64,000 nucleotides of DNA from contig PUQB01000161.1 of the NCBI GenBank assembly GCA_003024785.1, positions 186,001-250,000 on the forward strand, written 5' to 3'. Source of the stretch: Selaginella tamariscina (taxonomy: Eukaryota; Streptophyta; Lycopodiopsida; Selaginellales; Selaginellaceae). Shown in pieces: positions 22,511 through 54,042 of the stretch. Made by a program: the position numbers and the translations under genes. The first letter of the stretch is position 1. The number at the start of each line of letters is the position of its first letter. The notes under the pieces were generated by a model. That model searched no databases. It worked only from the letters and a program-made list of their open reading frames with translations, and was not told the DNA's origin.

Positions 22511-22579
<69 letters not shown>

Positions 22580-22584
22580 TGGAT

Positions 22585-22645: not shown

Positions 22646-22648
<3 letters not shown>

Positions 22649-22768
22649 TGTGTTGTCGGAACAAAGAAGGTTTAGGCACAGACCTTTTGCTTTTCTGAAG
22701 AAGGCTATGATGATAAACCATGAGAATTTGTTTGTGATAAATTGCTGATCGTGATATACCAATGGATC

Positions 22769-23275: not shown

Positions 23276-23342
<67 letters not shown>
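23275..23342. repeat. (CA)n-(TA)n microsatellite
   Basis: CA repeat from about 23275 to 23308 followed by TA repeat to about 23335, at the end of the minus-strand PPR fragment. Confidence 0.9.
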
Positions 23343-23663
23343 GTATACAAGAAAGTTGTTTTCCCTGGTTAAGATCTCCCCATGACGTCATGAAATGCAT
23401 CATGGCAACCACACACACAAACACACATAGACAAGCACACACACGACAATAACAACAACGCATTATTTTGCAGTTTCATATAACTAAACAAATGTATATA
23501 TATGTCACACTGTGTACTCTGAGTAGCTCCAAGCATTCCGTGAAGCAGAATCAATTGACTACAAGATACCAAACATATACAGGAGATTCTGAAGCTTTAC
23601 CCGTGTATAAGCTTTTCTGTACATATCAACTTTGGAGCACCGAATAAGAGTGGGATTAAGGGT

Positions 23664-23695
<32 letters not shown>

Positions 23696-23928
23696 GTGGG
23701 ATTAAGAGTTATATATTTATATTTAGGGGTTATATATATTCAATGCTATATATATATTATATATATATATAGGGGTCATGTTTATTGTTTCACAAATCAT
23801 TTCAAAAAATAAAGTATTCACTCTCGTTGGATTGCAATGTTATATACGTACTCATTTGTGGATTAATAGTGTTATGTACACACTCACATGTACTTATATA
23901 TAAAAAAAGATTGTGCAATACTATATTT
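23343..23928. other. Non-coding interior of H1 copy 1
   Basis: Microsatellite-rich (TA runs at 23668-23690 and 23740-23772). Homology with H1 copy 2 restarts at about 23645 (AGTGGGATTAAGGGTT, matching 16685), which fixes the right limit of the extra PPR segment. Confidence 0.6.
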
Positions 23929-25227
23929 TCACTTCTTCTTAGCTATCATGCTTTGACTAATAAGTAAGAAACTATCAGCCAACTTATCTAAACTATTAGC
24001 TATTTTAAAATCTACTTCTAAACTTGCCTCATGTCTCTTCATATTTCCAGCTTCTGTAATTTCAGCAACTGCTTCAGCACTTTCCTTAAGTGTAGAACAT
24101 AAAAGTTCAATATTCTCAGTTTTGGTTTTCTTTTTCTTTCTGCCAGAGCTATAATAATCCTCTCCTGTTAAATATATAAACTTAAACACACACACACACA
24201 CACACACACAAAAAACATACCATCCTCTCCATTAAATGAATTTTGCTGTGGTTGTGATGGTTGTTGATGTGTTGGCCCCCTTAAATCCTCAGTCTCAAAT
24301 GCAAAAGGTCCTGAGTTAACACTTGGTCGTTTTCCCATCCACTCTCGCATAGCATTGTACATACGCTCGTGAAATCTTACAGGTAACCTATGTTGTTTCC
24401 TTTCTTGAGCATCCATAATCCATATTCTACTTGCTCCAGTAGGATTATGAGAGTCATGTTGATACAACTTGTTAAAATCAGTTACTTGCCTTTCCCAACA
24501 AGATTTACACTGTGTAGCACTTCTATATACATTGTACCTCTTACAATACCTGCAAATATACACTTATATAATTAAGCCCACATACATAAGATGATATGTG
24601 TATGTGTGATGTGCATGGGTTGTTTTGTGTGTGACAATGAAAATGTGCACAGGATGTCTCTGTGTGAGTGACAAAGGGAATCTGCATGGGATGTGTGTGT
24701 GAGAGATGTGCATGGGATATCTCTGTGTGAAAAAGAGGAATGTGCATGGAATGTGTGTGTGTGATAAAGTGCACACACACAAACATACTTTAAACACAAA
24801 TATAATAAGTACTTACTCTGAGACTTTGTGCCACCGTTCATTTGAAGTGCAATGTCGTTCTTGAGTAGTTCCTCTTTGTTGATTGAAGAAATCTTGCTTT
24901 TTACCTTCATTTAAAATCAAAAGTTCGTCGAGAGTCCAAGGAGAATTAGCTGCAGATATGGGTTGTTGAGATTGTGATACTTTTTGTTTCTTTGATGATA
25001 TTCCTGTGTCTGAAGAAGCTCCGAAGATATCTCTGTGAGAAAGCTTTGGAATAAAAGATCCAGAGAAAATCTCCATGCTAGATTGGCAACTGTAAAAAGA
25101 AATTTATCTCAAAACATATATATAAAAAATTACCTTTGTAACGAATTGGGATTTCCGATTGTGAATTAGGCACTATTTCACAATCATCTTCTTCGTTGTT
25201 TTCCCAATTCACAAGTGAATTCTCCAT
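23929..25227 (-). CDS. Myb/SANT-like (trihelix) second protein of H1 copy 1
   Basis: Second protein of PIF/Harbinger elements, a DNA-binding partner that helps the transposase reach the ends. A likely first exon starts at 25227 (MENSLVNWENNEEDDCE, to about 25132). Next comes 25076-24816 with SPWTLDELLILNEGKKQDFF and ERHCTSNERWHKVSE; then, after an intron of about 265 bp, 24548-24223 with YCKRYNVYRSATQCKSCWERQ and LYQHD, GASRIWIMDAQERKQHRLP. A last exon follows a (TG)n-bearing intron (24167-24222) with GRKKKKTKTENIE and a helical tail ending SQSMIAKKK at 23929. Trp spacing and the RYNVYRSATQC block fit the Myb/SANT-like fold. The join between exons one and two is not exact in frame. Confidence 0.75.
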
Positions 25228-26479
25228 AGCCGTGACAAGAATAGATAAACCCTAGCCGCCTGTACCTACGAGCCGCCACACAGTAAAATATATTTTCATA
25301 TATTTTTAGAAAGACACGTGGCAAAAATAAAGTATATTCTCACCCTCACGAGGGTGAGGGAATTAAATCAAATACGGATATATTTGCAGCCATACCCTCA
25401 AGACCCTCGAGGGTGAGGGTAAAATATCACATGTGACCTCGTGAGGGTAAAAAGATTCCTGAGGGTGAGGGCACATGTGAACCGTCTCTAAAGGATTTAT
25501 TTTCTGTACAAATATACACGAAATATACAAAAATATTTTATGTCATACTTATGTATAATTATCTCTCACTCTAACATGTCATTAACAATTCATCTTTGTT
25601 GTTACCTTTTGAGCTAAGCGAAGAAGGTTTTAACCGCTTGGGAAATCGTTCAACATTTTCTATTTCTTCAGTTAATGTTTCTATGGTAAATGAAGTAATT
25701 GAATGTTCCATGCTCCTTAAGATAACTTTCGATGTGATATCTAGTTTAGGATCATCTTCAGATTCTGACATTGAATTGGATTCCTCAGAGTTGTCAAATT
25801 TCTTGGGAGGGAACTTTCCTAAATACTTATGTATGGGTTTGTTGAGTAGTCAGTTGAGAACCTCTCTATCCATTTGTTCAAGTCCTTGACTATGGTATTA
25901 TCCTTTTTAACAGCAAACACAAATGTATCTTGAAGGTAACACTCCTTCAAGACGAAACCTTTAATGTAGTAGTAAAAAACCCAAGCATCACTGGGAGGAC
26001 CTTTGATTAAGTTGACAATGCTGCGTGTAGCCTGACTTGTAATGTTTGGATAACTTACATTGCCGAATACATCCTTCTCAGTTATTGGTGTATCGATTAG
26101 AGGTTCAGGCCCGCTGGAGCAAAAATAAATTCTTGGTTAGTCGTTTGAAAGTTTAAAATTGTTTGATGCATTCCTAACAAACCAAGTGAGCAACTATATC
26201 AATACACCTAGAATCAACATCATTCATGTAAAATCCAATTCAGTGATGTTTGTTCTTCTTGGTGGTAAAGGTATTGGTGACATGAGTAAAAATTAAGAAA
26301 TAAATACCTAAAGACGTATGTATCATGTAAGTGTACAAGAATTAAATAATAAATACCTTCTTTGTACATGCTTGCATAATTTAAGCTTCTCTAAAAATCT
26401 TCTAACACCCAATCTGAAGAAGGATTTTTTTAATACCACCGATTCATTATAAACATTTAAAATGGTTTTTGTAGGTAGT

Positions 26480-27427
26480 TGTCAGAGTTTTTTACCTGGT
26501 GCCACAAAGGTGGCTTGCCAGGTGCCAACCATGAAATCCCCTCTCTGGAAACCTCACGGAATCTGGTAAAGTAACTCGTATTAGGAACCCAACCTTTAGG
26601 AACTTAAGCCCTTAGCTAGCCAAGTCCATGAACAAGGCTCACCTTGTGAATCAGGACATGCGGACTAGTCGAGCTACAAGTATCAATTCTAGCTTGGCGT
26701 GGTTGAGGTGGCTGGAGCAAGGCCTCAACCACTAGTTCTGCGGAACGTGAATTCGAGCAATGCCTTTTGAGCGTGCAAGTAGGTTTTCGGGCTAAGGAAT
26801 CTGACTAATTCCTTGGAATTAACGTACTCCCATCACAAAGGTGTGATCCTGCCAATGATAAGGATAGTCTAACCCAAAGGTAGGACGTACCCCTATCGTG
26901 TGAAAGTTAGGGCGGCAGACGACACAAGCTTAACCTACACTGGTAGGAGGTTAATGAGTTCTTTTTTGAACTCAAGAAGCCTCACTATATATACTCTACC
27001 TTATTTATGTGACGAACCCCCCTCCCTTGTTTTCCTAAGTGAGTAAGTGGGTTGGCATAGAAATGCCAGCCCTTAGAGAAAATGAGTTGTCCTAACCTAA
27101 CCCTAAACCTAACCCCTAGGAAGGGGGGTTAGGGCAACCCTAGGGTTAGGTCAACCCTAGGGGTGTCTCTAACACTTATTTTGACAAGCTACACTTTGCA
27201 AAGAACCCTAACTTGGAACATCAAAATGGGAGAGAGTTTTTCTAAATGGAAGTGCTAGCTTCACCTAGAGTTTCTTGCAATTACCTAATGACACCCGATC
27301 GGACCATCACTAGATACCCAAGTGCACTATGCAGGCATGTTTCTTCTACATCTAGGGTTCGTGACATAGTAGGTAACAACAGTCAAACCCCAAAGTAAAG
27401 GGTCAAGTCATAGTAAAAACTATGACA
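26480..27427 (-). mobile_element. Solo LTR of the LARD-like family, TSD GTAGT
   Basis: Plus strand begins TGTCAGAGTTTTTTACC and ends CTATGACA. GTAGT occurs directly outside both ends (26475-26479 and 27428-27432). X copy B provides the uninterrupted site around 48900. At 948 bp it is about half the length of the LTRs at 55880 and 61399, having lost an internal section. It contains CCTAACCC-like strings typical of this family. Confidence 0.88.
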
Positions 27428-27651
27428 GTAGTGATGTTACCCATAAAGTCTTTATTGTTGAAAGATTGCTATAAAAGAAGGTGTCATCACGATGTTCTCC
27501 TTTTGACATTGGCATGTAATAGATCTTCCGATTGGTTTACCCATTGGATAAGCATATTATTATTTGTTACCTACAAATATTTGCTGACCTCCTCGTATGC
27601 TAGAGCCAAGGCCCAACCCAGTTTATCCAATCACTCTTTAAAGTGTCTGAT

Positions 27652-29297
27652 TGTCAGAATTTTAATCCGAAGTGCCAACATGTGGCAACATGGGGCTGCC
27701 AAGTGGCCTTCTGGCATCATCACCTTGTGTGAACAATGTTAAGTCTTCTAAGATGAACCCAAAGAGTTTGACCCAAATGCCTAATTAGGTTGAAGACTTA
27801 GAGCCTACCCTAAGTCCCCTAGAATGACCATCCCTTGAACCATAGAGTAGATTTTAGGATCCTTTCCCAGTAGACCTAGACAAGCTCATGCCCTAACCTT
27901 ATCAAGGAGATGTGCTTTACACATACCCCCATGACAGAGCTAAGGCATCCTTGAGGAATCACCCTCATTCAAGTATGACAAGGGGTACCTTAAACCACGA
28001 TTAACCCTTGAGGGTTTGAGTGGCCAAATTATACTCTAGACTTAGGGGTAGTACCTAGAGTGTGCGCCATAGGTGAACATGAGTGTTTTGCAAAGCAAAC
28101 TCCCCAAGGCTAGGTTTGGATAACCCTAAGCACATGACCTTGCGAGTGTCTCACGAAAGGGCTCTTGTTAACAAACTTAGGTTGTTCAACCCTTGGATTC
28201 CAAGGAGAACACTCCCCTAGCCAAGCATGCCAAAGCACACCTAGTTATGAGACCTAACCTCCCTTTAGCGGATGCCCAAGACTTAGCACCCTAGTGCAAG
28301 CACAAGCATGCATGTTGGTTAGAGTATCCAACCCCTTGGTAACAAACCCATGACACAACCCCAAAGGGCGTGCCTTAGGCGTTGCACTATGTGCCATCTA
28401 GCCTAATGTCACATAAAGATATTTGCTATCATGCCATAGCTCCTTAGATTCAAGAGTTGCACCATGTGCCATAAATGTGGCTCTCAATGCCAACTCTAGA
28501 ACCCCTTTGTTATCCCTCAAGAACTCGGTAAGGAAACCCTATTAATTAAGAATCCACGACCACAATTTAGACAGGAAATTAGCATACCCTGCCTAATTGT
28601 GAGTGTTGGTCTTAGCTTGACATGGAGGAGGAGGTTGGAGACAAGCCTCAACCTCTAACTTTTAGAACTTGCATTTCAACAAGACCTTCTAGGCATGGAT
28701 TCGCCAACATTAAGGGTAAGCTACCTCAAAGGTGGGACATACTCATGTTATTTGGAAGTTAGGGTGGTACAACAGAGGCTTGTACCTTAATGACACAAGC
28801 TAAATCTTGCACCGGCAAAAGAGCAACGAACTCAGCCATGAATCCAAGAGCTCTCCTACATGTACTACTTATATATGTGACAAAGCCCCTCCCCGGTTGT
28901 TTTCTTATCTACATAAGTGGGATGGCACAAAATCTCATTCCCAAAGGAAATATACTTGGTGAGTTAATTAATGACCTTAAACAAGGTTTAGGGCAACCCT
29001 AGGGTTAGGTCAACCTTAAGGGTGTTTCTACCCATATCTGACATGTCAAACTCACCCAAACCACCCAAAAACCTACCTAGGACACGAAAAACTAAGGTAA
29101 AAGTTTTCTAGATGAAAGTGTTAGCTTCGCCCATAGTTTCTTGTAAGTACCTAATGACACCTGGTTGGATCATCACTAGATACCTAAGTGCAATAAGTGG
29201 GCCTGCTCCTTCTACATCTAGGGCTTATTAACATAGTTCAGTAAGTAACAACAATCAATGTCCAAAGTAAAGAGGAGTCATAATAAAAACTATAACA
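27652..29297 (-). mobile_element. LTR of the LARD-like family (solo or remnant)
   Basis: Begins TGTCAGAATTTTAATCC and ends AACTATAACA (a decayed TGACA). Over 1.65 kb it is the inverse of the LTRs at 37026, 55880 and 61399. Flanking 5-mers CTGAT and CAAAT are only partly alike, so the target duplication has decayed or the ends are off by a few bases. X copy B reads through the site near 48565. Confidence 0.8.
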
Positions 29298-30545
29298 CAA
29301 ATCGTTTTCAGCTCCATTGCCTTGAAAGGTGGGGTTATTGTTGTTAATATGTAGTTTGCCATTAACCACCAAATTAGCTAACACATCCATCTCCTTCATC
29401 GTTATTCCTTTCAAAGACTTTAACCATGTGAGTTTGAAGTTGTTGTCTACATCCTTCGCAAGTTGGATAGACTTAACCTTGGGCGTTTTATTGACTTTCT
29501 TTGCGGACTTTTTCAAAGGTTCCCCTTTACCCATTTGTTTCTTCTTGAATGTTCCTTTTGTAAAGGATTCCATGATCCCCACTCATTTGGCAAAGACCTT
29601 GTCATTGGGGCAAAAAATTAGCATCATTAAAAAGAATGTGTCCTTTTTGCCCACTTGGCAAAATCAACTAATGCAATTTCTTCGATTCTTCACATAGATT
29701 AATTAGAAGATATTATTTTGGCAGGATAAATCCTGCCAAGAATATGTCTTATCTAATATTCCGCACTTTGTTCTTTCCTTGCATTAGCTCTTTGCAATTG
29801 CCCAAGAGTTACCCACATGTGGATCTTTTTATCATCTTTACACATGTATGCTCAAAAAGTTTTGTTGTCATCATTCCCTTATTGTGTTTATTGAGGAGTC
29901 GTTGGGTTGTCATTATCATGTGTTGGTTGTTAATAATGTAGTACCTTATTGGTTTCTTACCCTTCATTTGGATCTTCATGATTTGGTCTGAGTTGTCACC
30001 ACATTATTTTAGTGCCTTTTTTTCTTTCATAGTATGGACATAAAACAGCATTATGTGGGACGGTGTACAAATTGTTGTCTTTCATTTTCTGCATGAACTC
30101 AGTTACATGTTCCTGATTGAGTGGTCTATAGTTAAAGTTAAGGTTAACATTACAATAATTAACCTTACACTCATAAATCTTGTCATCCAATATCATTTCC
30201 TTGTAGCTTATCGTAGCATGGGATGTCATTGGTGTAGCTGATAGAAAGACAAAAGGCTTTCTTTTGCAGTTAAAATTAGCATGTGTGAGCCTCAACTGCA
30301 GCTATTTTAGTATTTCTTGGCACATTATTCTGAAGATTCCTAGCAAATTGAATGTGATTTATAAAGAACTTGGGATCGAGCTACATTCTCAATCTCCTTA
30401 ATAATGTCATTGTGTTCTTCTTCAAAGATAGTTGGGACAATTACTTTATTTGTGGATCTTTTATATTTTAAGTAATATTTGCTATGAATACACCTACTTG
30501 ATGAGTATTGAAATCCTCAAAGAAGACATCTGCCGATATATGAGA

Positions 30546-40142: not shown

Positions 40143-40337
40143 GTCTAACAGTCTTTTCCTACCCATGCAGGATCTTTCCTACCACTGTAGGATGTTTCCT
40201 ATCCCCCATAGGATTTTTCCTGTACTCATAAGATTTTCCTACCTACGTGTTTCTCTTTATCATAGGAAAGTTCTTGTATGCAGTTTCTATATGCTCTATT
40301 TTTGGTCCCTAAACTCTCAAATGTCAACTTGAGAACC
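40143..40337 (-). mobile_element. Repeat fragment and left half of the LTR target of X copy B
   Basis: Contains a short series of TTTCCTACC/CATAGGA motifs. The last about 40 bp (AATGTCAACTTGAGAACC) match the LTR-family string AATGCCAACTCTAGAACC at 28475-28500; the continuation of that LTR lies beyond X at 51523. Confidence 0.5.
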
Positions 40338-40773
40338 ATGCAAGTTGTAACTAAAATGGGCATGGCTATAGTCCCATTTTTAATAATTAGCAATTTTAGC
40401 TATTTAATTAGCATTTTCTAATATTAAAGGAATATTCTTTTAGAATATATGTTTAAAAAATAGAATATTCTTTAGAATATTCATTTATAGTTAAGTAAAC
40501 AATTTGGTATTATTATTAAAGAGTTTATAATAATTATGAATATTAAATATATGATATTTTTTAATTTTGTAATTGCTTTAAGCTTCAAAAACATACATTC
40601 CCTTGTAGTTTTGTTAATCGTGACTTTATCAACGCTTCTTGACATCCACCCATATCAAATGGATTTAACATTTATAAAACATGCTGGGTCTTTTTGATTG
40701 GGAGACCATGTTTCTCTAGGCATTCATTATATCTTTCGCTCTCCTTCTCGTGTCGCCTTTTTTGTGGTTTGAA

Positions 40774-43690
40774 CTATGCAACCTTAACAATACTATTTTT
40801 TGTGATTACTTCAGGTGTGTCGATAATTTGACCCATCCAAATAGGTTGATTATATGACGCATCTAGAGTAATGAGAACCATCATTAGTTTTTGAAGATCC
40901 TGGCAGCAAATCAAAGTATGCTTTAGGTTTTTGGTTCCTTTGTCCAACAAAGTGTGGGGTTTGCACTTCCACATCACTACTGGCTTCTATATCGTCTGTG
41001 CTCAGTGATGTCATTTCAATCTCCTCTCGCCACCTTGTTTTAGGCCAAAAAGGGTGTTGCAATTCTGTACTTGTGACAGTAGGCCCTTCCAAGTCTCGAA
41101 CAACAGTCTCCCAATAGTCAACCACATGCTTATATAGTTCTGAGTAACCAATTGCCTTATCAGAATTCTTTGGCATCGATTTTTGAACCCATGCCACATA
41201 TTTTTTGATGCCATCAATAATAACCTCTTGTTCCTTGAGCTGGGCACTCAATGGAATAGGGTCTGGTTGTCCTTCTGGGAGAAGTGGATTTCCATTCTCT
41301 CCACTTTTGAAGAGCATTAACCCCTCTTTCGGTAACCACTCCTGCTCTGATGGCCGTAATTTGTACTGCATAATAGGTATACCATCTCGTATGGAGAAAA
41401 AGAATTGTAAGGCACAAGGTGACCAACTAAAGAATCACTCCCTCTTTTATATACTCCTTGAGAAATTTTTTGAAGTCTGGCACCTCAGTCACAAGCAAAG
41501 CACAACTTTTTTTGGAGATGCAATTTTCAAAAGATTCATCATATGCGGTAAGATAAGTGCACTTGTCCTTTTTGTAGAGTTGGAGACCTTGCTGAAGAAC
41601 GCATCAATATCTTCATGAGTGTGACCAACCATAAGAAAACTGAGCGTGATTGTTTCAAACACACCTTTGGCAACAACATTGACAAGTATGCTAGCACATA
41701 TCTAGAAAATAAAAGTAAGTATGAGCTTGAGAAACCCTTAAGTAAAATGATTTACCTATTTTTGTTCTCGCCTGCATAATTATCCATCTGTAAAAGCAAA
41801 TGACGAGGAAGCTTATTTGATGTTGAGGACACATGTACACTATTTGAGCTAGATCCCTCCTGAACCTGAACTCTCAACAGGGCCATCTGTTTTTTGTGCA
41901 GGTTGCTGACAATGCCTCTCATATTCCCAAGTAGCCTCAAGTGCAAATGTGTTCATGAGAGCATTATGTAAAGGTTGAAGGTGTTGTTTCTTCACTTTGA
42001 GATCACTGATAAAACTTGTATGTGAGTGGGCTTCAAGGTTTCTGAAACACATGGCCAACGACCCAATAGTGAAATTGGAGTCGCTAGACCAATGTGGAAA
42101 TGAAAAGTGTCCATATGATTCACAACCATGTCCATGTGTTAGCACACCTGTCAATGAAATCGGAAGTTTCATGACATTTCCAAGGCACTTTGGTGTTGCA
42201 ATGAGCTTTGGAATGCTGTTTTTGAATGATCCATCTTGTTATGGATCAAGCACAGGTACTCTGATGGGCGTGACACAGAAAGCATGCGGTGTGCATAGTA
42301 CTAAGACCGGCAAGTTTGTTGTGCAATCATGTGGGCCTCCATCTTCTTTTGAATGGCAGTGATCTCCACCAAGGTTTTTGCACAAGCCTCTGCAGCCTTC
42401 AATGATGTACAAGTGTCACACTTGGAAAAGCTAGAATGTTTTGCAATCTCCACATCCTTAAAATGAGTATTCCATATGTTGTTGAAGGTACCAGTGCAGA
42501 TTGCTTGCAGCCCATCAAGCTTGAGGCACTTGTTCACACACAGCTTCAATTGAGTGTAGATCGAAGGCAAAACCTTGAGATTTTCCCTGACCCCTGCATT
42601 TGTGGTTCGACATTTGTGAGGCATCCTGTCTGCATTTGCTTCCACAAAAGCCTTGAGTATCTCTATGGCTGCCATAATGTGAGAGCGGGTTTTGACCAAG
42701 CCAGTGTTCCCATGTACTGAGGTTTGCGCTCCATCTAACCACTCATCCCTCCGACGATAGAACATGGTCTTTGGGATCTCATATATACCGTACCAAGCTT
42801 TGAAGCAGATGGCCACCTTATTAAATACCATGGATGTACTCTGATAACCTGTGTCCGAAGCCATTCCATCAATATACCCAGTTAGTGCAGCATATACAAA
42901 CTCATGCCTTTGCTTTTGGGTGAGCGTACAAAAGACATGTCTACATTGGGTAATTTCATTCCGGTCTGCCATCTGACAACACTTTTTCTTGCAGCAGTCA
43001 ATCGTGGAAATGCTCATTACACTTTCGGAAGATGTAGGATCCATCTTCACCCTTTTGCTGAAACATGTAGGGGAAGATCTGCAACCCATGAATCGCCTTT
43101 TTCTTATAATAGGACCAATGCAAGGAACCTCTTCAAATATGAATTGTTCTTCCGGGTTGTTATTATTGAAATCCAACCCAAAATATGTTGAACCATCTTG
43201 CCGTTTTAATTCAGATGTTCGCCACCTCACGAGGGATCCAGGATGCAAAGTGCCATTAGGTGAAACCTCTGTTACAACTACACCCACGAAGTTGGACCCT
43301 AGTTTCTCTTCTGACACTGCTTCCATTAGATTTATAGCTGTGATGATGCCTCTCCCAACCTCAATCTCATGAAGAAAGAGAATCACCTCATCCATCACAG
43401 CAGACAAGCCATCATCTGGAAAACTCGTGCTACTGTTTGTTTGTGACTCTGTATATTCTATGTCAGCCTTAACTTCATCCAAATTCCACAATACAGGAGA
43501 ACCCTCCTCAAATTCCATTCCAGGAACCTCAACATGCTTGAAAATGGTGTTCACCCATACGTACACACAAGATCCTTGGGCAATATTGTGACATGATGCA
43601 TTATCATCTCGAACTTCCACAGTTCCAGTGCCAACTATCTCGTTGTTCCAAAGAAGACATACTTTATCTCAGTATTATACATATTGTCCT
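40774..43690 (-). pseudogene. Putative DDE/RNase H-like transposase of X (DUF7869-like)
   Basis: Read 3' to 5'. The N-terminal domain (43620-42301, 439 aa open) starts after VGTGTVEVRDD with GSCVYVWVNTIFKHVEVPG, then a Cys-rich patch CCKKKCC (near 42975), MFYRRRDEWL, VHGNTGLVK and a second Cys pair SFSKCDTCTSL (near 42420). An in-frame TAG at 42298-42300 interrupts it. The core then reads YLCLIHNKMDHSKTA (first Asp, near 42240), GVLTHG and SFPHWSSDSNFTIGSLA (42050-42150), LLLQMDNYAGENKNR (second Asp, near 41765), FLMVGHTHEDIDAFFSKVS (acidic cluster, near 41600), then IMQYKLRPSEQEWLPKEGL (41350). These motifs are those of the plant/animal proteins I believe are named DUF7869, suspected transposases. 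At least one stop and three frameshifts; some gaps (41380-41480, 41640-41750) may be short introns. Confidence 0.7.
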
Positions 43691-43857
43691 GCACATAAAT
43701 AATTGTGTTATTTATAATATCTATTTATGCAATATTTCTAAGAAATCATAACTGCAGTTGCTTAATAATATGCATAATACATAATTATATATAAAAATAT
43801 GCATAATATATCTCATATTTATTAATAATATCTCATGCTTTAATAATATAACTAATG
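43691..43857. promoter_or_regulatory. Probable 5' region of the transposase gene of X
   Basis: AT-rich stretch between the first recognisable transposase exon and the first palindrome. An AG acceptor-like site (minus strand TTATGTGCAG, near 43690) suggests that a 5' exon lies further upstream. No specific promoter element is supported. Confidence 0.35.
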
Positions 43858-44045
43858 GGCGGGATTAATCCCGCCGCAGACTCTACCCCTTCAGAGTGAG
43901 TCGGCGGGATTAATCCCGCCGTCGACTCTACCCCATCGGAGAGAGTCGGCGGGATTAATCCGCCGCCGACTCCCCCGTCGGAGAGAGGCGGCGGGATTAA
44001 TCCCGCCACCGATATATCCTCGTTGGAGAGAAGCGGCGGGATTAA
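43858..44045. repeat. Palindrome array, block 1 (about 45-bp spacing)
   Basis: GGCGGGATTAATCCCGCC occurs at 43858-43875 and 43903-43920, with one C missing at 43948-43964, again at 43990-44007, and as a half copy from 44035. Spacers read like CGACTCTACCCC and CGGAGAGAGTCG, which can themselves pair (GACTCT with AGAGTC), so hairpins can form both at and between the palindromes. Confidence 0.95.
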
Positions 44046-45269
44046 CCCTTAATCTCTTCTCTCATACATACACAGTGTCACCATGCATAATTCCTTCTCT
44101 CATACATACACACCATGCATGATCCATAATATGTACTGATGTTACAATATTATGTAATATGTATAATGTATATCTGTGTATAACACTCACTCCTCTCATA
44201 CATAAACACCATGCATGATCCATCCTAACCCTAAACCCTAAACCCTACATTGAATTTACACATGTAATATGTATGTATGTCTGTGTGTATACACGTGTGT
44301 ATGTATATGTGTGTACTAATATATCCAATGTGTATGAATTTAATTTGTTAACACTCTCACTCTTCTCTCATACATACACACCATGCATGATCCATGTAAA
44401 TATATACTGTCTTTCTTCTCTCAAACATACACACCATGCATGATTCATAATATGTATTTCACTCTTCTCTCATACATACACACCATACATGATCCTGTAC
44501 TCTGTCTCTTAATATTAATATGTACTAATATGTATGTATGTCTATGTGTATAATACTATGTGTGTATATATGTATCGTTACACGTGAAACTTTAACACTC
44601 TCATGGACACACACGTGTTAAACCCGTGCATGATATTTATTCTTGGGGTGTATGTGATACACCCACGCACACGCACACGCTGATAATATAATAAAAGAAT
44701 ATTTGTTTAAGGCGAATCTATAGTATATTCTTTTTAAGGTTTAAGTATATTCTTAGAAGGAATATTCAATTAGGGTTAATATATATTCTATTCCTTTTAG
44801 GGTTTAAGTATATTCCTAGGGTTTGTAAGGCGGCGGCGGCGGCGGTGGCGAAATCTCCTTCTCTCTCTCACACAGGTGAGATCTCTCTCTCACACGCACA
44901 CTCTTCTACGTTTATTTATTTATTTTTATTCACATATATATTTATATGTGTGTGTATCTTAATAATATAATTTAAATCTCTATCTCTCGCACACATGCAC
45001 ACTCGTATACATATACACACACAGTATATATATATTATATTCTATTTATTTTCTATTATATATATGTGTGTGTGTGTGTGTGTATCTGTATAATTTTATT
45101 GATTTGCTAATTGTATCTCTCGCACACACACGCACACTCCTGTATATATATATATGTGTGTGTGTGTGTTTGTTTATTTGTATGATTTTATCTGATTTGA
45201 CTATCTCTGGCACACACACGCACTCTCCTACACACACATATACATATATATATATCTGTGTGTGTGTGT
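44046..45269. repeat. AT-rich spacer with a CTCATACATACACACCATGC repeat, a CGG run and microsatellites
   Basis: Imperfect copies of CTCTTCTCTCATACATACAC followed by ACCATGCATGATCCAT occur near 44055, 44095, 44193, 44353 and 44465. A telomere-like CCTAAACCCTAAACCCTA string lies at 44228-44246, a (CGG)6 run at 44831-44850, and TG/TA/CA dinucleotide runs fill 44930-45269. No gene. Confidence 0.8.
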
Positions 45270-45274
45270 GTATA

Positions 45275-46040
45275 GCGGCGGGATTAATCCTGCCGCTATA
45301 TGGTGAGACGTGTGTAGCGGCGGGATTAATCCCGCCGCTATATAATTAGCCACTCGGCGGCGGATTAATCCCGCCGCCATTTCAACCCAAGTGAAGGGCC
45401 TGGGCAATCCCTCCTCCTACGCATGCCCTGCGCGGAATCGGGTGGGATTTATCCCGCCGCTAAAGGCCTGTAAAGGGCCTAGGCGGCGGGATTAATCTCG
45501 CCGAATTCCGCACAGGGCATTGGTGTCCGACAAGATTAATCCGCCGACTAAGGCCCAAGTGAAGGCCTGGGCGGCGGGATTAATCCCGCCGGATTCGCAC
45601 AGGGATTGGCGTCGGCGGATTAATCCCGCCGATTAAGGCCAGTGAAGGGCCTGGGCGGCGGGATTAATCCCGCCGCGTACGCATGCCCTGCGCGAATTGG
45701 GCGGGATTTATCCCCCGCCAGGCCTGCCTGAAGGGCCTAGGCGGGGATTAATCCCGCCGATTCCGCACAGGGCATTGGCGTCCGGCGGGATTAATCCCGC
45801 CGACTAAGGCCCGATGAAGGGCCTAGGCGGCGGGATTAATCCGCCGTACGCATGCCCTGCGGAATCGGGCGGGATTTATCCCGCCGCCAAAGGCCTGCCT
45901 GAAGGGCCTAGGCGGCGGGATTAATCCCGCCCGATTCGCGTAGGGATTGGCGTCCGGCGGGATTAATCCCGCCGCATAGGGACCGAGTGAAGGCCCTGGG
46001 CGGCGGGATTAATCCCGCCGAGCCTTCAATGCCTATTGGA
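45275..46040. repeat. Palindrome array, block 2 (higher-order repeat)
   Basis: About 18 copies of GGCGGGATTAATCCCGCC or its variants (core ATTTAT; single-base losses) spaced 40-50 bp apart. Spacers alternate: one reads ACGCATGCCCTGCG with GAAT, the next AGGCCTGCCTGAAGGGCC, the next GATTCCGCACAGGGCATT, the next AAGGCCCGATGAAGGGCC. The third type is close to the reverse complement of the first. Units of about 170 bp recur, for example ACGCATGCCCTGCG at about 45419, 45680 and 45848. Confidence 0.95.
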
Positions 46041-46390
46041 GGAATGAATCCCGCCACCCTTTTTTTTCTTCATTGGTGAGTCGGACCAATCCCAAACGTT
46101 TCTGTCTGAGACGTAGAAGGTTTACAACATACCAATGGAGAGAACTGGGAAGGGTGGCGAAATTCATTTAACCATCCTTACATGGTGGGCGAGATTAATC
46201 CGCCTCCTTTCTGGAGTCACTGAAGGGGTGTGCCAAATAAATCCTGCCAGTTCTCTCTGAGACCGAGAAGGGTGGCAAGATTAATTCCGCACTCCCGTTC
46301 AAGGCCTCCAGAAAGGTGGCGAGATTAATCCCGCCCACTCTTTCAGGAGGCATTGAAGGGTGGCGAGATTAATCCCGCCGCACCTTCCAT
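46041..46390. repeat. Palindrome array, block 3 (degenerate copies)
   Basis: Weaker palindromes such as GTGGCGAGATTAATCCCGCC near 46315 and 46355, GGCGAGATTAATCCGCC near 46188 and half copies near 46045 and 46275. Looks like an older edge of the array where copies have diverged. Confidence 0.85.
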
Positions 46391-46492
46391 GTGAATATAT
46401 ATGTGTATTAATATATAAGTTGCATATCTCATTTTATTTACTTTTATCATCTTATCATAATATTTCGAGTAAAAGCTAGGAAACTATGTAAA

Positions 46493-46576
46493 ACTGTCCA
46501 GAGCTCACATTTGTGGTGGTTTAAAACGAAATGTTATCTTTCTTTTGCACTAGCACAAAGGTGAGCTTTGGACAGT
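46493..46576. repeat. Inverted repeat, 23-bp arms, 38-nt loop
   Basis: Left arm 46493-46515 (ACTGTCCAGAGCTCAC...) pairs with right arm 46554-46576 (...GTGAGCTTTGGACAGT) with two mismatches. It lies between the palindrome array and the first plus-strand exon of X. Confidence 0.9.
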
Positions 46577-46716
46577 TAATTCCGTTACTTCTCTCTGTGT
46601 ATTATTTGTATATTCGGGTTTATACAAGTGTGTGTGCGTTTTTATATGATTTGTATTCATAGTGTATTATTTTGCAGAAGGACGATTTAATTAAACAAGG
46701 AGATCGAGTCATTAGT

Positions 46717-47350
46717 ATGGAGTCGTCGTCAAATTCTGGGTAAGAATTAAAATAAAATCTGTTATACTCGGATATGTGCTTGAACTAATCATTTTTGTAT
46801 TCAGATGTGGAATTGAGGTGACATTAAAGACGAGAGCAGGAGAAGAGATGGGCAGGGGGATTCTGGAATCAACTTGGCCATATTTCAAACTAAACGGGAA
46901 GCGCATTGGAACAACCATGGTTGCTGTCAAACTAACCTCTGTCACATCGCATGGACAAGCAAAACAATGGAAAGTGGTGTGCTAGTCAAGCATCCGAAAG
47001 CATGCTGTGAACCCAGATTGAACGATGCTCGACACATATGCCTCGTTCCATCCAATGTCACGTTCTCGGATCCAGAGGTCGCCAGTTACAACATTAATTT
47101 CGGGTGGTTTTGTCGACTTGTGGATAATGACGTTCACGTGTTCACTAATGATGTTGACGTGGAGTTCTTCTTCAACTCAACGAAAGCCCATCTATGGAGG
47201 GGATCCAACTGGATGTTACTTCGAAGATCTTCAGACTCATCGAGTAGGTGTATTGTCAGGAGATATTGCTTCACAATACAGAAAATCCACAAATGGAGCA
47301 ATCGTCCCTCTTCACATTGAAAAGAACACACGACATCATAAAGGAGATTG
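46717..47350 (+). pseudogene. 5' part of the ParB/methyltransferase-like gene of X, function not recognised
   Basis: A probable first exon starts at ATG 46717 (MESSSNSG) with a GTAAGA donor at 46740 and an acceptor near 46804. The next exon reads CGIEVTLKTRAGEEMGRGIL and KLNGKRIGTTMVAVKLTSV to a stop at 46985. After a frame change, VTFSDPEVASYNINFGWF and DNDVHVFTNDVDVEFFFNST follow (to about 47190), then YFEDLQTHRVGVLSGDIAS in another frame (to about 47320). I do not recognise the domain. The frame changes suggest indels or undetected short introns. Confidence 0.5.
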
Positions 47351-47360
47351 AGAGGGTGGC

Positions 47361-48107
47361 TTGGTCTCAGGTTCTTTACAGATCACGTTCAATTTGCTTA
47401 GCAAATTTCGGGAGCTGGAAGAGTGTGCCAGAACATTAGAACAGCATCAATCGGGGATCACACATGTTGATTCGGATCGTAGAAGAAAATCATTAGTCGT
47501 TTTGTCAGCTGCACCTGTGGCGTCCCATGCTGCAATAAGCCACAAGGAAATGATGTTGGATGATAGGATTTATGAGTGTAGGGTTAAGTATTGCAGCGTC
47601 AACCCAAACTTCAATTACAGGCCACTCAATCAGGAACGTGTAGCTGAGCTCATGGAGAAGATGAAGGACGACAATTCTTACACCGTTCCACATAATGCTG
47701 TTTTGTGCGCATACTACGAGAAACAAAGGGCTGACAAAGTGTGGATCACAACACCGGAACAAATGAGGAAGGTTCAGACGGAGAATAGAAAATCAGTTAA
47801 GTACTACATCATTAGTGGCCAGCACACAATAACGGCAGCCCAACGACTTCTCGACGAACACAACAAAGGAACGATGGCAACAAAACTTTCCGAGCATACC
47901 CGTGAGAAGCTGACGAAAATCGGCGTTTTTAGCGAAGCCGAATCTCACAATCGAGCAGTACCATAAGTTATCGGCGGAATGGGACGCTGCAGACACCACT
48001 ACAACAGCAAAATATGGGAGAAGTTCAAACACACGCGAGCCGTGTGGGAATCTCTTCAGCGACCACAAAGAGCTACCGCAGGGAATACACAATCTGCGGA
48101 CTACCGG
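47361..48107 (+). pseudogene. ParB/sulfiredoxin-fold-like domain region of X
   Basis: The 201-aa open part (47361-47966) contains FNYRPLNQERVAELMEKMKD (47605) and, about 70 residues later, VKYYIISGQHTITAAQRLLDE (47790), in the same positions as the N-terminal ParB motifs RPxxxxxVxxLxxSI and YxIIxGxxRxxAAxxL. Known ParB-N domains bind CTP or act as nucleases; in phages they are often fused to DNA methyltransferases. Here the Arg of the GxHR motif is Thr (SGQHTITAA), so enzymatic function is doubtful. After 47966 the frame shifts by one and continues with LTIEQYHKLSAEWDAADTTT and RAVWESLQRPQ up to a donor at 48108. The same region occurs in X copy A at 29996-30295. Confidence 0.65.
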
Positions 48108-48167
48108 GTAAGCAAATTGTTTGGGCGGGATTTATCTCGCCGGTATATTAATCTGTCTTTTTTCTCA
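48108..48167 (+). other. 60-bp intron carrying one copy of the palindrome
   Basis: GTAAGCAAATTG donor and TTTTCTCAG acceptor join TADYRV to EEIVAVDFAQVGG. In the middle is GGGCGGGATTTATCTCGCCGG, a variant of the palindrome with the ATTTAT core. It is the only copy seen outside the central array. Confidence 0.7.
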
Positions 48168-49810
48168 GAGAGTTGAAGAAATTGTAGCAGTTGATTTTGC
48201 CCAGGTGGGCGGGAAGGAAACATCCTTTTTGATGATGTTGATTTCTTGTCCCGAGGATAGGATCTTTGCGAAATGGTTGGGGATTATGGAATCCTTTGCA
48301 AAAGGAACACTGAAGAAGAAGCAGACAAGTGAAGTGGAGCCCTCAGAGAAGTCTGCAAAGAAACCCAGTAAGACGCCGAAGGCTAAGTCTGTTCAATCTA
48401 TAAAGGATGTAGACAACGATTTCAAGCTCACATGGTTGAAGCCTTTAAATGGAACAACGATGGAGGAGATGGAAGTCTTGGCTGATTTGGTGATTGATGG
48501 CAAATTACAATTAACAACAGCAGCCCCACCTCTCCTTTTCATCTCAAGGCAATGGAGTTGAAGACGGTCAGGCACTTCAAGGAGTGGTTGGGAATACACT
48601 GCCACAAACTGGGTTGGATTTCGGCTTCAACATACGAAGAGGTCAGCAAATATTTGCATGTGACAAATGATGATATGCTTGTCGAATGGGTGAATCAATC
48701 GGAAGATCTGGGCAAGAATCTATTGCACGCCAACGCCAAAAAGGAGAACATTGCGATGACGCCTTCTCTTATGGCAGTCCTTCAGCAGCGGAGAACCGAG
48801 TTGAACCTTATAAAGGAGGATGCTACGAATCACGACAAGCCCTACAGATGTTTGTTGTTGGATTCGGAGACTTTATGGGGTACCATCACTGCTTGTAGGA
48901 AACCGTTTCAATTGTTCGTGATGGATCGGCGGGTGTCAAAAAATCCTTCGACAGACAGGACACTAGAGGATTTGGTGGAGAAACTTAGTGCAAGTATGTA
49001 CAAAGAAGGTATTTATTATTGAATTCATACTTGCACTCTTGACTGATATCTACGTTTTCAGGTATTTATTTCTTGATTCTTGCTCATGTCACCGATACCT
49101 TTGCCTTCTCCTTTGCCAAGAGGAATAAACCATCGTTGGACAGGATTTTATATGAATGATGCTGATCCGAAGTGCATTGATTCGGTTGTTCACTTGGTTG
49201 TTAGGAATGCGCCAAACAGTTTCAAACTTCCAAATGACTGGCCAGGCATCTGTTTGCACTCCAACGGCCCTGAACCTCCATCCGATACACCGATAGGTGA
49301 GAGTGACGTATTCGGCAATGTACGTTATCCAAACATCACAAGTCAAGCGGCACGGAGCATCGTCAACTTGATCAGGGGTCCTCACAGTGATGCGTGGGTT
49401 TTTGACTACTGCACTAGGGGGTCCGTCTTGAAGGAGTGTTACCTTCGGCATACATGTGTATTTGCCGTTGAAAAGGATAAGACCATGGTTGAGGACCTGA
49501 ACAAGTGGATAGATAGGTTCTCAACTGACTACCCCAACGAATCCATAAAGGAGTATTTGAGAAAGTTCCCTCCGATAAGTGCGATAGCTCTGAAGACGAA
49601 TCTGGTTCAATGTCGGAGTCTGAGGACGAACTTCAATCAGATATTAGACCGGAAGTTATCTCGAGGAGTACAGAACATTCGCACACTCCATTACCCATGG
49701 AAACATCAATAGAAGATGCAGAAGATCTTGAACCATCTCACAAGCGGCTTAGACCTTCTTCGCCTCACTCAGAAGGTAATAGCGAAGAAGAATTGTTAAT
49801 GAGTTCTTAG
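48168..49810 (+). pseudogene. Methyltransferase-like C-terminal part of the ParB-like gene of X
   Basis: Follows the intron with EEIVAVDFAQVGGKETSF and a Lys-rich region (48300-48400: KKKQTSEVEPSEKSAKKPSK). The next segment, 48552-49022, includes YRCLLLDSETLWG, in the place where a DPPY-type catalytic motif would sit. A likely 53-bp intron follows (about 49009-49061), then 49080-49712 with VFDYCTRGSVLKECYLRHTC and VFAVEKDKTMVEDLNKWI, resembling the SAM-binding motif I and acidic loop of beta-class DNA methyltransferases (DxFxGxG...ExD). The order (ParB, motif IV, motif I) matches phage ParB-methylase fusions, but the Gly loop and DPPY are altered, so catalysis is unlikely or the match is wrong. 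An acidic tail in another frame (MSESEDELQSDIRPE to 49810) ends it; copy A conserves this tail. Confidence 0.55.
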
Positions 49811-50064
49811 AGTGACGAATAGTTGTAAATGAGTGTAACATAAGGCATTTTTGTATATTTCGTTTATATTTGTACAGAAAATAAATTCTCAAGGATTAAT
49901 GAAGCTTTTAGTTCAAACATGGGTCACACATTAACAAGGTAAATAATATACCTTGATAATTTTAAGGTCAGCTAATTATCATTTTGCAGATGTAATGAAA
50001 CAATTGAGAACATGGATTTTCAGCATTGGCATGAGGTAAGAGAGGGGTTTGGCGACAATTTCTT
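49811..50064 (+). other. Spacer between the two plus-strand genes of X
   Basis: AT-rich, 3' UTR-like after the acidic tail. It is the part of copy B that matches both sides of the H1 insertion in copy A (49885-49960 against 19880-19949 and 25492-25560). Confidence 0.8.
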
Positions 50065-51219
50065 GTGCCACATGTCAGAATGACAGAGTTCATGCAGGAA
50101 ATGGATAATAATGCAGCTCAAAACATCGTTACCATGGGGGCCACTTCAGTTTTTTCATCATCATTTTTATTGGCTTCAGTTCCGAAATCAATTTCTTCAG
50201 CGCATGCAATATCTGAATCTTGTAAGGATGATGTACAATTAAATGATGAAGGGATAGGCAACGAGATAGTGGCAACGGATAAATGTGAAAGGGAGCAAAC
50301 AAGTGATTTGCAAAGTATTCAAGAGGCAACGCATGTTACTCATGGCCATATTGTGTTGTTGGATGTCAATGGTGTTCTGCTTCATCGACAAAGGCCCGAG
50401 GATAGGAAAAAAGAAATCAAACAAGGAGATTTCATTCCTTGTCATGGTAAATTTCGATATGATATTATTTTTCGTCCAGGGTTGGATCGTCTCTTTCAAA
50501 AGCTTAAGGAGATGGGTGCGCTTGTGGGGATTTGGTCATGCATGCAGATTCATAACTTAACACCGCTGTTGAATTTGCTTAAGAAACATTGTAGTGTTGC
50601 AGAAGAGGTGATTCGTAAAGATTTTTTTGACCAGCGAATATGTTATAAACCTCTCGAATTTCACAATATAAGAAAGGAAAGCAAGCCGTCTTCTTCAAGA
50701 ATGAAGAATAATTGGGACTCATGGGGAGATCAGTCGCTTAAGATAATGAAGAAGCACAGATGTTAGTGTAGACGACTCTCCTCAGAAGGCTATGCTCAAC
50801 CAAAACATTGCTTGTATTCATCCAATCACTTTCGATCCATATTCTGATACGATATCATGGATGAGCTAGTGAACTACTTGGATACGTGCCTCAGAAAGAA
50901 GAATCTCGAAAATTTTTGTGAGCAGTATCCACCGTATCATACATTTCCTGAAGCTTTTCTTTCTCGTGATTTTGAATTTTATAAAATGAAGGATAGCAAC
51001 CGGGCGCTTTATAATATTATTCTTAAGGAACGTCATTTTTAGATGAGCCTTTATGCAGACCTGGTCTTATTATCTTATGTATTAACAAGGATGGCAACTC
51101 CCAATTGCATTCGTGAGAGTGTTAGGTGGTGGCAACAACATCAAGATATTGACCAAAATGATTTGATTAATCCGGAGAGTGATGATTTAGACAAAATGAG
51201 GAGATTTCTGTATGGTTAG
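50065..51219 (+). pseudogene. FCP1/NLI-type HAD phosphatase-like gene of X
   Basis: HAD-fold protein of the CTD-phosphatase-like (FCP1/SCP) group. The N-terminal 90 residues are low-similarity and Ser/acid-rich. The domain starts near 50340 with HIVLLDVNGVLLH, matching the hhhDxDx(T/V)(L/V) motif except that the second Asp is Asn; I recall DVNG as usual in one plant FCP1-like family, so this may be inherited. Then come FRPGLDRLFQKLKEMGALVGIWS (about 50470) and KKHCSVAEEV. After a frameshift near 50690, SVDDSPQKAMLNQN (about 50763) matches the late acidic VDDSP motif, and after another shift MDELVNYLDTCLRKKNLENF (50857) matches the C-terminal DxELxxLxxxL helix. A last segment ends RWWQQHQDIDQND...FLYG at 51219. 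At least three frame changes; X copy A keeps the same gene. Confidence 0.75.
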
Positions 51220-51522
51220 AAGAAAGTATTTATAAAAAATTAACATGTTGATAAGAAAATGATTTCATTTGTAATTATGTTTGATAGTATTTCTTCATTA
51301 TTGTAAACTATTTTTAGAATAATATGAATATTCTAAGATATTTTAGGAATATTCCTTACTAAGTAAGGTTATTGAAGGATTAATTAATTAATTAATTAAT
51401 ATTTAAGGCTTAATTACATATTAATTAAATGATTAATTAATAATTAAAACTTAAGTATTAATTAGTAATTTATTTTATATTCCATTTTCACGTATCATGC
51501 CCACTTTAGTTACAACGTGCAT
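51220..51522 (+). other. Right terminal region of X copy B
   Basis: AT-rich, with a repeated TTAATTAATTAA tract near 51375-51400 and the TIR at the end. It corresponds to the tandemly duplicated segment of copy A (17613-18665). No gene. Confidence 0.85.
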
Positions 51523-51801
51523 ACCCTTTTTGTGATCCATCAGAAACTCAATAAAGAAAACCTATCAATCAAAATCCCACACTCACAGTTAAACAAGGAC
51601 ATGAATGTGCCCTACTTGTGAGTGCTACTCTAGAGACAAACCTAAACCTTTGACCTTTGGAATGTGCAGTCTAACAAGACCTCCCATGCATGAATTCACT
51701 AACATTAAGGGTAGGTTACCCTGAAGGTGGGATGTACCTTTATTTTGGAAGTTGAGGCGACACAACAAAGAGTTTGGCTTAACAACACAAGTTAAAGCTT
51801 G
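51523..51801 (-). mobile_element. LARD-family LTR fragment (right half of the X target)
   Basis: Inverse of 56390-56660, with CACTCACAG, CCTCCCATGCATGAATTC and GGTAGGTTACCCTGAAGG. It continues the LTR broken at 40337 and is itself cut at 51802 by the chromodomain gypsy LTR. Confidence 0.8.
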
Positions 51802-52367
51802 TGTCAAGCCACGATCCAGGAAACAGGAAGTGAGCAGGATTCCAAGAGTAGGAAGGCTTGACTCAGGAGTAGGATAGGAAACAAGACAGGAACTAGGAAC
51901 TCAGGAGCAAGTCAAGACGCATGACAGGATCCAGAGTAGGACAGGAACAGGACTGGATCTAGGAGCGAGATAGAACAGGACAGGATCCAGGAGCGAGACA
52001 AGAGCAGGAGGCAAAGGAGCAAGACAAGACAAGAACAAGACAAGAACAAGAATGATCGTAGAAAGACTGGTGTTGATAGTAACTGATTGTACAACAATTA
52101 GGTCGGAGCTTTTATGTCACAACTCCAAGCTAATTAGTCATGAGTCTAATCTAGTCATGAGCTAAGAATAGTGTCCCTTATCCTCTAGGCATATCCTGTA
52201 GCATATCCTATAGGCATATCCTATAGGAATATCCTATAGGTATATCCTGTAGAAATATCCTGCAGGCATATCCTATAACCCGCATTCCTGTATCCGAAAT
52301 CCTGCATCCTGTATCTGTATCCGGAATCCTGTATCCTGCATCTTGTATCCTGTATCGGGTTGTGACA
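51802..52367 (-). mobile_element. 3' LTR of a chromodomain Ty3/gypsy element
   Basis: On the minus strand it runs from TGTCACAACCCG (52367) to GGCTTGACA (51802), 566 bp, with TGTCA...TGACA ends. Interior strings such as ATCCTATAGGCATATCC repeat several times near 52190-52280. A polypurine tract (minus strand TTAGGGAGGAGGTGC) lies directly upstream. The LTR end at 1-88 is a second copy. Confidence 0.9.
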
Positions 52368-54042
52368 GCACCTCCTCCCTAAGGACGAGTTCCACGAGTC
52401 TTAGGACCTGGTTAGCAGGATAATGCCGATGGAAGGCAACAACTTTGGAAGAAGCATGGAGTAAGTTGGATGTAGGTTCCCAAGTGCGATCGGTAGGCAA
52501 ATAACCTTTCCAATCCACCAAGTATTGAAGTTGGCAGCGATGAAGACGAGAATCAAGGATGGCTGCAACTTCGTACTCAGGTTCACCAGCAAAAGACCAC
52601 AGGAGGGGGAGGAGAAGAAGCACGACCAGGAAGAGAAGAAGGATGATACGGCTCCAACAAGGAGGTGTGAAACACAGGATGAAGTTTCACTGTGGATGGT
52701 AACTCGAGTCGGAAAGCTACAGGATTTACCTCCTCCACGATCCTATAAGGGCCCAATCGTTGAAAATCCAACTTAGAAGAAGGCCTGTTGGTGCGAATGT
52801 GTCGACGAAGAAGCCACACAAGATCACCAATCTTGTATGCAGGTGCCGGCTGACGGTGAGCATCAGCATGATGCTTGTACCGTTCCTGTGCCTGCTGAAG
52901 GTGAACCTGGAGAGCATCCTGTACCTGCCGAAGATGCTGAAGACGATCCTGTACTGCAGGAGCGGAAGATGGAGAAGCAGGAGGAGCGAAGTTAAAACGT
53001 GGATGGTGGCCTGTAAGAGCAAAGAAAGGTGTCTGTCCTGTAGATGCGTGAATGGAGTTGTTGTAGGCAAACTCCCGCCATAGGAAGAAGGTCCAACCAA
53101 TTGTCCTGTTGGTAACTGATGAAGCAGCGGAGATATTGCTCCAGGTCTAAATTGTCCGTTCTGATTGCCCATCAGTTTGCGGGTGATATCCTGAAGAAAG
53201 ATCCGCTTTAACCTGTAGACTCCGAAGAAGCTCTTGCCAAAACTTGGACATGAATTGTGGACCTCGATCGGAAACAATGCTCTCAGGAAGACCTGATGTC
53301 GGAACACCTCACGGATCCACCAACTCGGCAGTTGTTGACCTGTAGCTATCTTGTTGCAGGGTAGGAAATGAGCCTGCTTGGTGAAACGGTCAACCACCAA
53401 GAACTGCATCGAATCCGCGAGAAGGAGGAAGATCAGTGAAGAAATCCATAAGAAATGGATCTCCAAGGAGCAGAAGGAACAGGAAGAGGACGAAGAAGAC
53501 CAGAAGGTGCATGACGAGGCATCTTCGACTGTTGCAGGTGTCACAACTCCGTACGACCTTTCCCAAAACCTCGCAACCCAGGCCACCAATAGTTGCGAGT
53601 CACCAACTCAACTGTCTTGGCCACACCGAAATGTCTTGTAGCCGGGGTATCATGACAATCCTGTCCACACGAGTTGCAAACCCAACAGGAACGTACAGGA
53701 GACCTTCCCGGTATAGGAGTCCGTCCTGTATGGAAAACAGCGTGTAGTCTGAACGGGAACTGGAGGAAGAGGAACTTGCAATGTCAAGATGAATGTGTGA
53801 GAGAACACATTCTTTGCCAAGTCGTCTGTATCCAATTGCGAACGGACGTCCTGTAGGAGTGTTGAATTTGCTGGAGCCTAATGAACCTGCAGTGCCGCAA
53901 GCCGGAATCGAATCAAGACCCAACAACACTTGCCTTTGACAGTCAAATGCAGGATCGCCCGGGCTTGGTGCAAGGTAAAGAGCGCCTAGACAATGCGTCC
54001 GCCTTACCATTCTGAAAACCGGGCCTGTAGACGATGACGAAG
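52368..54042 (-). pseudogene. Ty3/gypsy chromovirus pol 3' half: RNase H end, integrase, chromodomain
   Basis: Minus strand from 54042: VYRPGFQNGKADALSRRSL (end of RNase H), then FSIQDGLLYREGLLYVP (53720, linker to the integrase), VVDRFTKQAHFLPCNKIATG (about 53370, integrase core), then broken core to RLGPYRIVEEVNPVAFRLEL and HPVFHTSLLEPY (52620-52760, integrase C-terminus), and a chromodomain EYEVAAILDSR, QLQYLVDWKGYLPTDRTWEP (52413-52584), expected to bind histone marks and steer insertion. Frames shift repeatedly. Gag, protease and most of the reverse transcriptase are missing: the element stops at the assembly gap. Confidence 0.88.

Follow-up and report, generated by a model that had tools for sequence, protein, structure and literature searches.

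A DUF7869 transposon family with Sola-type features, a ParB/methyltransferase-like gene and a phosphatase gene in Selaginella tamariscina

Ends and genes of the element

We analysed 64,000 nucleotides of the Selaginella tamariscina genome (assembly GCA_003024785.1, contig PUQB01000161.1, positions 186,001 to 250,000; this whole stretch is referred to below as the window), which contain a DNA transposon of 11,185 bp at positions 40338-51522. The limits of the element were defined by its inverted ends, by the 4-bp target duplications of its family and by the existence of other copies with both ends. Its minus strand carries a predicted DDD transposase gene, and its plus strand a ParB/methyltransferase-like gene and a phosphatase gene. 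An earlier reading of this DNA, made from the letters alone (the sequence-only reading), had described a complete 11.2-kb transposon. The element is indeed a single mobile unit, but it is not intact: its transposase gene is broken and the copy is shortened.

The left terminal inverted repeat, ATGCAAGTTGTAACTAAAATGGGCATG (40338-40364, plus strand), agrees at 25 of 27 bases with its inverted partner at the right end, ATGCACGTTGTAACTAAAGTGGGCATG (51496-51522, minus strand). The chance of such agreement is about 2e-13 for one given pair, and the inverted ends noted earlier are thereby borne out. The termini of the element read 5'-ATGCA...TGCAT-3'. It is flanked on the plus strand by AACC (40334-40337) and ACCC (51523-51526), which differ at one of their four bases. 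The 3-bp ACC flanks of the sequence-only reading had to be replaced by a 4-bp duplication in which a single base has changed, as comparison of the window copy with 11 other copies having both flanks revealed (C510, which meets an assembly gap, was excluded). A 4-bp duplication was exact in 8 of these 12 copies and contained one mismatch in the remaining four (the window copy, C514, C536 and C549), while the rejected 3-bp length fitted 1/12 copies, 2 bp 1/12 and 5 bp 0/12. None of 20,000 partner shuffles of the flanks gave eight exact 4-mers. The duplicated targets of the family include ATTA, CCCA, ATAG, CAGA, AAGT, TTAT and ATAA. In C538, one of the eight exact copies, two right ends follow one another; the first was used in the count (TTAT/TTAT), and the second gives TTAT/ATAT.

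The minus-strand gene is predicted to encode a DUF7869 transposase in two exons. Exon 1 (41756-43682) specifies a Tudor/KOW-like N terminus and the motifs CCKKKCCQ, NKMDHSKTA and DNYAGENKN, and exon 2 (40577-41701, 3' limit approximate) specifies VGHTHEDID and a C-terminal BAH-like region. They are separated by a 54-bp GT..AG intron with an in-frame stop (41702-41755). The three motifs on which the transposase had originally been proposed (MDHSKTA, DNYAGENKN and VGHTHEDID) were all confirmed on this strand. The first catalytic position is assigned to the D of DKMD, the second to DNYAGENKN (LDN) and the third to VGHTHEDID, and this DDD triad is kept across 60 aligned relatives (third acidic position D in 60/60, neighbouring E in 43/60). 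The window copy has N at the first D of DKMD, where all 60 relatives have D. It is further disrupted by an in-frame stop after CRS and before MDHSKTA, and by frameshifts after MDHSKTA and flanking the intron region.

Both exons are open in one natural copy, C84 (locus L055), where they score 94.1 and 47.1 bits against DUF7869 (PF25273, cut-off 26), the sole Pfam family matched by this transposase; the window piece 41849-42172 alone reaches 25.3 bits, just under the cut-off. A predicted model of a relative of the transposase places its core beside Mos1 and retroviral integrases, with fold lists compatible with every DDE family, and gives it Tudor-like and BAH-like ends. The named DUF7869 relatives come from bryophytes, cnidarians, one mollusc and one sea cucumber; the bryophyte relatives and the introns point to a plant host. 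A viral source of the element was rejected, since none of 123 pattern matches in viral contigs proved to be a relative, and so was a phage source, tblastn of phages with the ParB/methyltransferase-like reading having given no match. Prokaryotic contigs yielded three DUF7869 relatives (L056-L058) among 86 pattern matches. These lie on contigs of 4.3-6.4 kb labelled as cyanobacterial or Bacteroidetes metagenome or metagenome-assembled genome; they are probably misbinned eukaryotic DNA, and a prokaryotic source was set aside.

The ParB/methyltransferase-like gene lies at 47212-49811 on the plus strand (5' end unsettled), with reading frames spanning 47361-49712 in the window and an intron at about 49009-49061. 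Its parts were recognised by eye: a ParB-like part at about 47560-47900, from YYIISGQHTITAAQRLL, which we take to be a ParB-like motif, and a methyltransferase-like part at about 48850-49550, from VFDYCTRGSVLKE, presumably methyltransferase motif I. No ParB or methyltransferase domain was matched in Pfam (E<=10), NCBIfam, PHROGs or PADLOC, two protein searches with this part returned no relative, and the predicted structure of the ParB part (pLDDT 39.5) was too poor to be of use.

The second plus-strand gene (50080-51043, limits approximate) contains the family motifs LLDVNGVLL ... VVDDSP of a NIF/FCP1-type HAD phosphatase. The window open reading frame 50065-50766 matches PF03031 with 31.5 bits (1.8e-7), and the family-majority reading with 46.3 bits (4.8e-12), the cut-off being 21.8 bits; judged by this profile, the NIF-type identity is secure. 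The catalytic motif reads DVNGV and is atypical; the strict NIF/FCP1-type motif is DxDx(T/V). Both plus-strand genes of the sequence-only reading are therefore present, the phosphatase by profile but the ParB/methyltransferase-like gene by motifs. The non-coding middle of the element (43858-46386) consists of minisatellites with GGCGGGATTAATCCCGCC units. These arrays, built on a palindrome, are possibly binding sites; in other copies the middle that contains them is several kb long.

Copies in the genome and the unity of the element

The transposon family is real and abundant in the source genome (300.7 Mb in 1391 contigs). With the left-end 163 bp, 40 of 1317 candidates were scored and all 40 matched at 95-100%; with the right-end 153 bp, 40 of 136 candidates were scored and 11, the window included, were 100% identical. 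Both figures are minimum copy counts. Of the 40 scored left-end matches, 20 loci were retrieved, and 14 of these have a single left-half block of at least 3.2 kb (93.6-96.8% identity to the window copy). At the other six (L012, L013, L014, L021, L023 and L024) the left half is interrupted, truncated or in two blocks, and L013 also reaches the contig start. Four complete copies measure 13,656, 12,867, 13,593 and 14,149 bp. Because these relatives are longer, and because the window copy is missing roughly 265 bp around its position 149 as well as some of the minisatellite middle, we regard it as a shortened member of the family.

Indels are frequent in comparison with substitutions (52 indel bases versus 18 substitutions in 4.9 kb of the window right half, the reference being a five-copy majority), and the positions of reading-frame breaks vary from copy to copy. 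Single-base deletions in homopolymers (22/100 versus 18% of sites) show no clear concentration. The frame breaks may reflect either assembly error or real decay. Among the best 150 DUF7869 matches, more than 80 have the identical score of 95.0 bits, and many of these contain long open frames. This points to a recent expansion of nearly alike copies, and the family has probably been active recently. At 6 of the 40 scored left ends, a DUF7869 exon from the best 150 of 4249 candidates stands at the expected place.

Whether the accessory half travels with the transposase half was examined from both ends. Twelve of the 14 copies with a full left half were followed on, leaving aside L011 (close to a contig end) and L015 (where the block is part of another copy, in inverted orientation). 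Eleven run on into a common right half with a common right end, the right half having been read in seven of them only over the last 1.3-2.7 kb, and the twelfth (C510) enters a run of N. From the opposite side, a 701-base probe at the expected left-half site detected left-half sequence in eight of ten copies chosen, among the 40 scored, by their right end; one of these, L045, is supported by only about 40 bases outside repeats. Genome-wide pairing used the best 150 of 4249 DUF7869 candidates and the best 150 of 5794 methyltransferase-like-exon candidates. Among these matches there are ten divergent pairs 8.9-11.7 kb apart versus two in other orientations at 7-14 kb, and 27 of the 150 methyltransferase-exon matches share a contig with any of the DUF7869 matches.

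A transposase element and a separate ParB-phosphatase element might have been joined by chance, as the two right-end copies without unique left-half sequence at the probed site, and the second copy in the window, which is an accessory half alone, could suggest. Against this, a single pair of ends encloses the two halves in 11/11 followable copies, eight right-end copies have left-half sequence, and there are ten divergent pairs. Chance joining is largely refuted, and we give it next to no credence. The transposase-like gene thus belongs to one unit together with the remaining genes, as the sequence-only reading had proposed; separate movement of the halves, which it had named as the observation that would speak against its proposal, was not seen in the copies examined.

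The second inverted copy reported earlier is real (17613-30530, minus strand), but it comprises the accessory half only, at 75-90% identity, heavily decayed and interrupted by other repeats, and a search of the 64-kb window turned up no further transposase half. Its right end, present at 17613 and again at 18141, is tandemly duplicated (17605-18140 and 18135-18670; the repeats are about 535 bp long and 85% identical), so that two inverted ends follow one another, as the right ends do in C538 (L020/L039). A PIF/Harbinger-type transposase lies inside it at 20441-21486 (PF13359, 7.1e-20 over 20956-21486), and a related one is found at 9916-10533. Just beyond the shortened element, a chromodomain (PF00385, 1.7e-12) is encoded on the minus strand at 52273-52623; chromodomains occur in chromo-carrying Ty3/gypsy integrases. 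The only host-type-looking gene among seven outside frames scanned is a nitroreductase-family frame (PF00881, 1.7e-6) at 2815-3756 on the plus strand.

Proposed mode of action and the role of the accessory genes

The reading that we favour, with a probability of roughly 0.68, is that of a 13-14 kb family mobilised by cut-and-paste through its own predicted DDD transposase of Sola type. The core of this enzyme, predicted to have an RNase H fold with the triad in DKMD, LDN and GHTHEDID, would cleave the DNA at the inverted repeats and insert the transposon into the two target strands at points 4 bp apart. Chromatin marks are predicted to be read by the Tudor/KOW-like N terminus and the BAH-like C terminus, which might in this way steer or license insertion. 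The ParB/methyltransferase-like protein would bind the DNA of the element itself, perhaps through the GGCGGGATTAATCCCGCC palindromes in its middle region, and could mark this DNA or shield it from silencing. In the weakest step of the proposal, the NIF phosphatase may act on host transcription proteins in a manner favouring expression of the element.

Changes between the copies are informative in this respect. Synonymous changes exceed expectation in the transposase (81 versus 59 expected; 0/1000 simulations as high; stop-making changes 13/213), in the ParB part (24 versus 14.6; 2/1000; 2/53; five copies) and in the methyltransferase part (36 versus 24.2; 1/1000; 0/77), and the excess is weak in the phosphatase (24 versus 17.4; 53/1000; 3/66). 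The test counted distinct changes between copies, skipping those within four columns of an indel, and used five copies for the ParB part and up to 12 for the later parts, with the final stretch of the NIF gene left out. As the copies share ancestry, these figures are indications rather than exact probabilities. The excess in the transposase and the accessory genes suggests that the proteins, and not the DNA alone, have mattered to the family.

Two observations weigh against the favoured reading. Two of the ten right-end copies have no unique left-half sequence at the probed site, and, in the majority of five copies, LDSETLWG stands at the place, set by eye, where we would expect DPPY/W, which we take to be the catalytic motif of a beta-class N4/N6 DNA methyltransferase. 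For this reason it is doubtful, on sequence grounds, that the ParB/methyltransferase-like protein is an active methyltransferase. The absence of a recognisable DPPY/W motif would also suit a different view of the accessory half, namely that it is passive cargo, consisting of genes of host or foreign origin that became trapped between the ends and are of no use to the element. The atypical motif and weak synonymous excess of the phosphatase point the same way, as do the stops found in the searched frame of many methyltransferase-exon matches (best 150 of 5794). We consider passive cargo unlikely, given that the accessory half is kept in the copies followed, that the ParB and methyltransferase parts show a synonymous excess reached in only 2 and 1 of 1000 simulations, and that a brown-alga transposon has a protein of the same described kind (PMC12477816, in the passages on this element). 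A large equal-scoring group among those best 150 matches has one TGA and one TAA in the searched frame; the tail of the query is in a different reading frame from that of the family majority.

Relation to known transposons

In the sections of PMC10741241 dealing with the Sola superfamily, its members are described as having a DDD transposase, a 4-bp duplication and inverted ends of variable length (11-1124 bp), some exceeding 15 kb, and they occur in moss. Our family resembles this description in its 4-bp duplication, its DDD triad (derived from the alignment of relatives), its 27-bp inverted repeats, its large size and its bryophyte relatives. It differs in the Tudor-like and BAH-like transposase ends, which those sections do not mention, and the likeness is one of description only. 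An even closer parallel is Sola1-1_Ec32 of Ectocarpus (21.5 kb), in which the gene opposite the transposase encodes a ParB-like and DNA-methyltransferase protein of 1104 amino acids. According to the passages of PMC12477816 on this element, proteins of this type may bind to the transposon that encodes them and mark it; similar ones are cited there from green and red algal transposons. The claim of the sequence-only reading that no described element joins such genes therefore fails, whereas its central proposal, a single unit mobilised by the transposase-like gene with the other genes as cargo or co-factors, stands as to the single unit (11/11 followable copies).

Both Sola1-1_Ec32 and our element are giant DNA transposons with a transposase opposite a ParB/methyltransferase-like gene. 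The complete copies here are smaller (12.9-14.1 kb), and they carry a NIF-type phosphatase, which the passages on the algal element do not mention (PMC12477816). The ParB and methyltransferase parts in Selaginella are too diverged for Pfam, and this likeness, too, is one of description rather than of sequence. Likewise, in the literature searched, which left most subscription journals outside, we recognised no description of a phosphatase in such an element.

Other carriers of additional enzymes are more distant. The fungal DNA transposons with TET/JBP genes, as portrayed in parts of PMC12730594, also have a DNA-modification enzyme aboard, thought to aid escape from silencing; that enzyme is a dioxygenase, and the transposase superfamilies and the hosts are different. 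Kolobok lineages are DDD/E transposons with additional enzymes as well, but the relevant passages of PMC9587614 give them TTAA duplications and other accessory proteins. Kolobok was rejected here, the duplications of our family being variable rather than TTAA. PIF/Harbinger (0-, 2- or 3-bp duplication, PF13359) was rejected on the poor fit of 2 and 3 bp (1/12 copies each) and on PF25273 as the only Pfam match, Ginger (5'-TG...CA-3' termini) on the 5'-ATGCA...TGCAT-3' termini, and the CMCT group (among others EnSpm, Plavaka and ESTA; mostly 5'-CA...TG-3' termini, with C(2)C and H(3-4)H motifs) likewise on the termini of our element.

Since size, 4-bp duplication, DDD triad and layout agree with the descriptions of Sola, the element likely belongs to this superfamily, judged by features rather than by sequence. 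There is good support for its working in the manner of a Sola1 element that has a ParB-methyltransferase partner. DUF7869 could instead be the transposase of a separate, unnamed DDD superfamily sharing with Sola only the 4-bp duplication and the carriage of a ParB/methyltransferase-like gene. Neither DUF7869 nor PF25273 nor the GHTHEDID string was found in any paper of the same literature, a search of PDB sequences with the family profile gave no match, and the Tudor-like and BAH-like ends are absent from the published Sola passages, all of which would agree with a separate origin. We nevertheless find it rather improbable, because the triad, the 4-bp duplication, the size above 10 kb, the bryophyte relatives and the opposite-strand ParB/methyltransferase-like gene fit Sola and Sola1-1_Ec32 as these are described. 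Less probable still is a non-Sola superfamily whose transposase has chromatin readers and is accompanied by a self-marking set: a ParB-type protein coating the palindromes of the middle, a partner resembling a methyltransferase, and a phosphatase directed at the transcription machinery of the host. If true, this would be a transposon choosing, marking and opening its own chromatin.

To conclude, as a published brown-alga element has the same plan of transposase plus methyltransferase, the element probably represents a further branch of a transposon kind already outlined in algae; the new parts are the phosphatase gene and the predicted chromatin-reader-like ends of the transposase. DUF7869 proteins are widespread and Pfam assigns them no function, and here one sits in a mobile element with defined ends, 4-bp duplications and an open natural copy. 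The arrangement in which a transposase is faced by a ParB/methyltransferase-like gene now extends beyond the described brown alga, with a phosphatase added, and there are indications of selection on the accessory genes. Together, these findings make the idea of transposons that mark themselves epigenetically testable in a second lineage.

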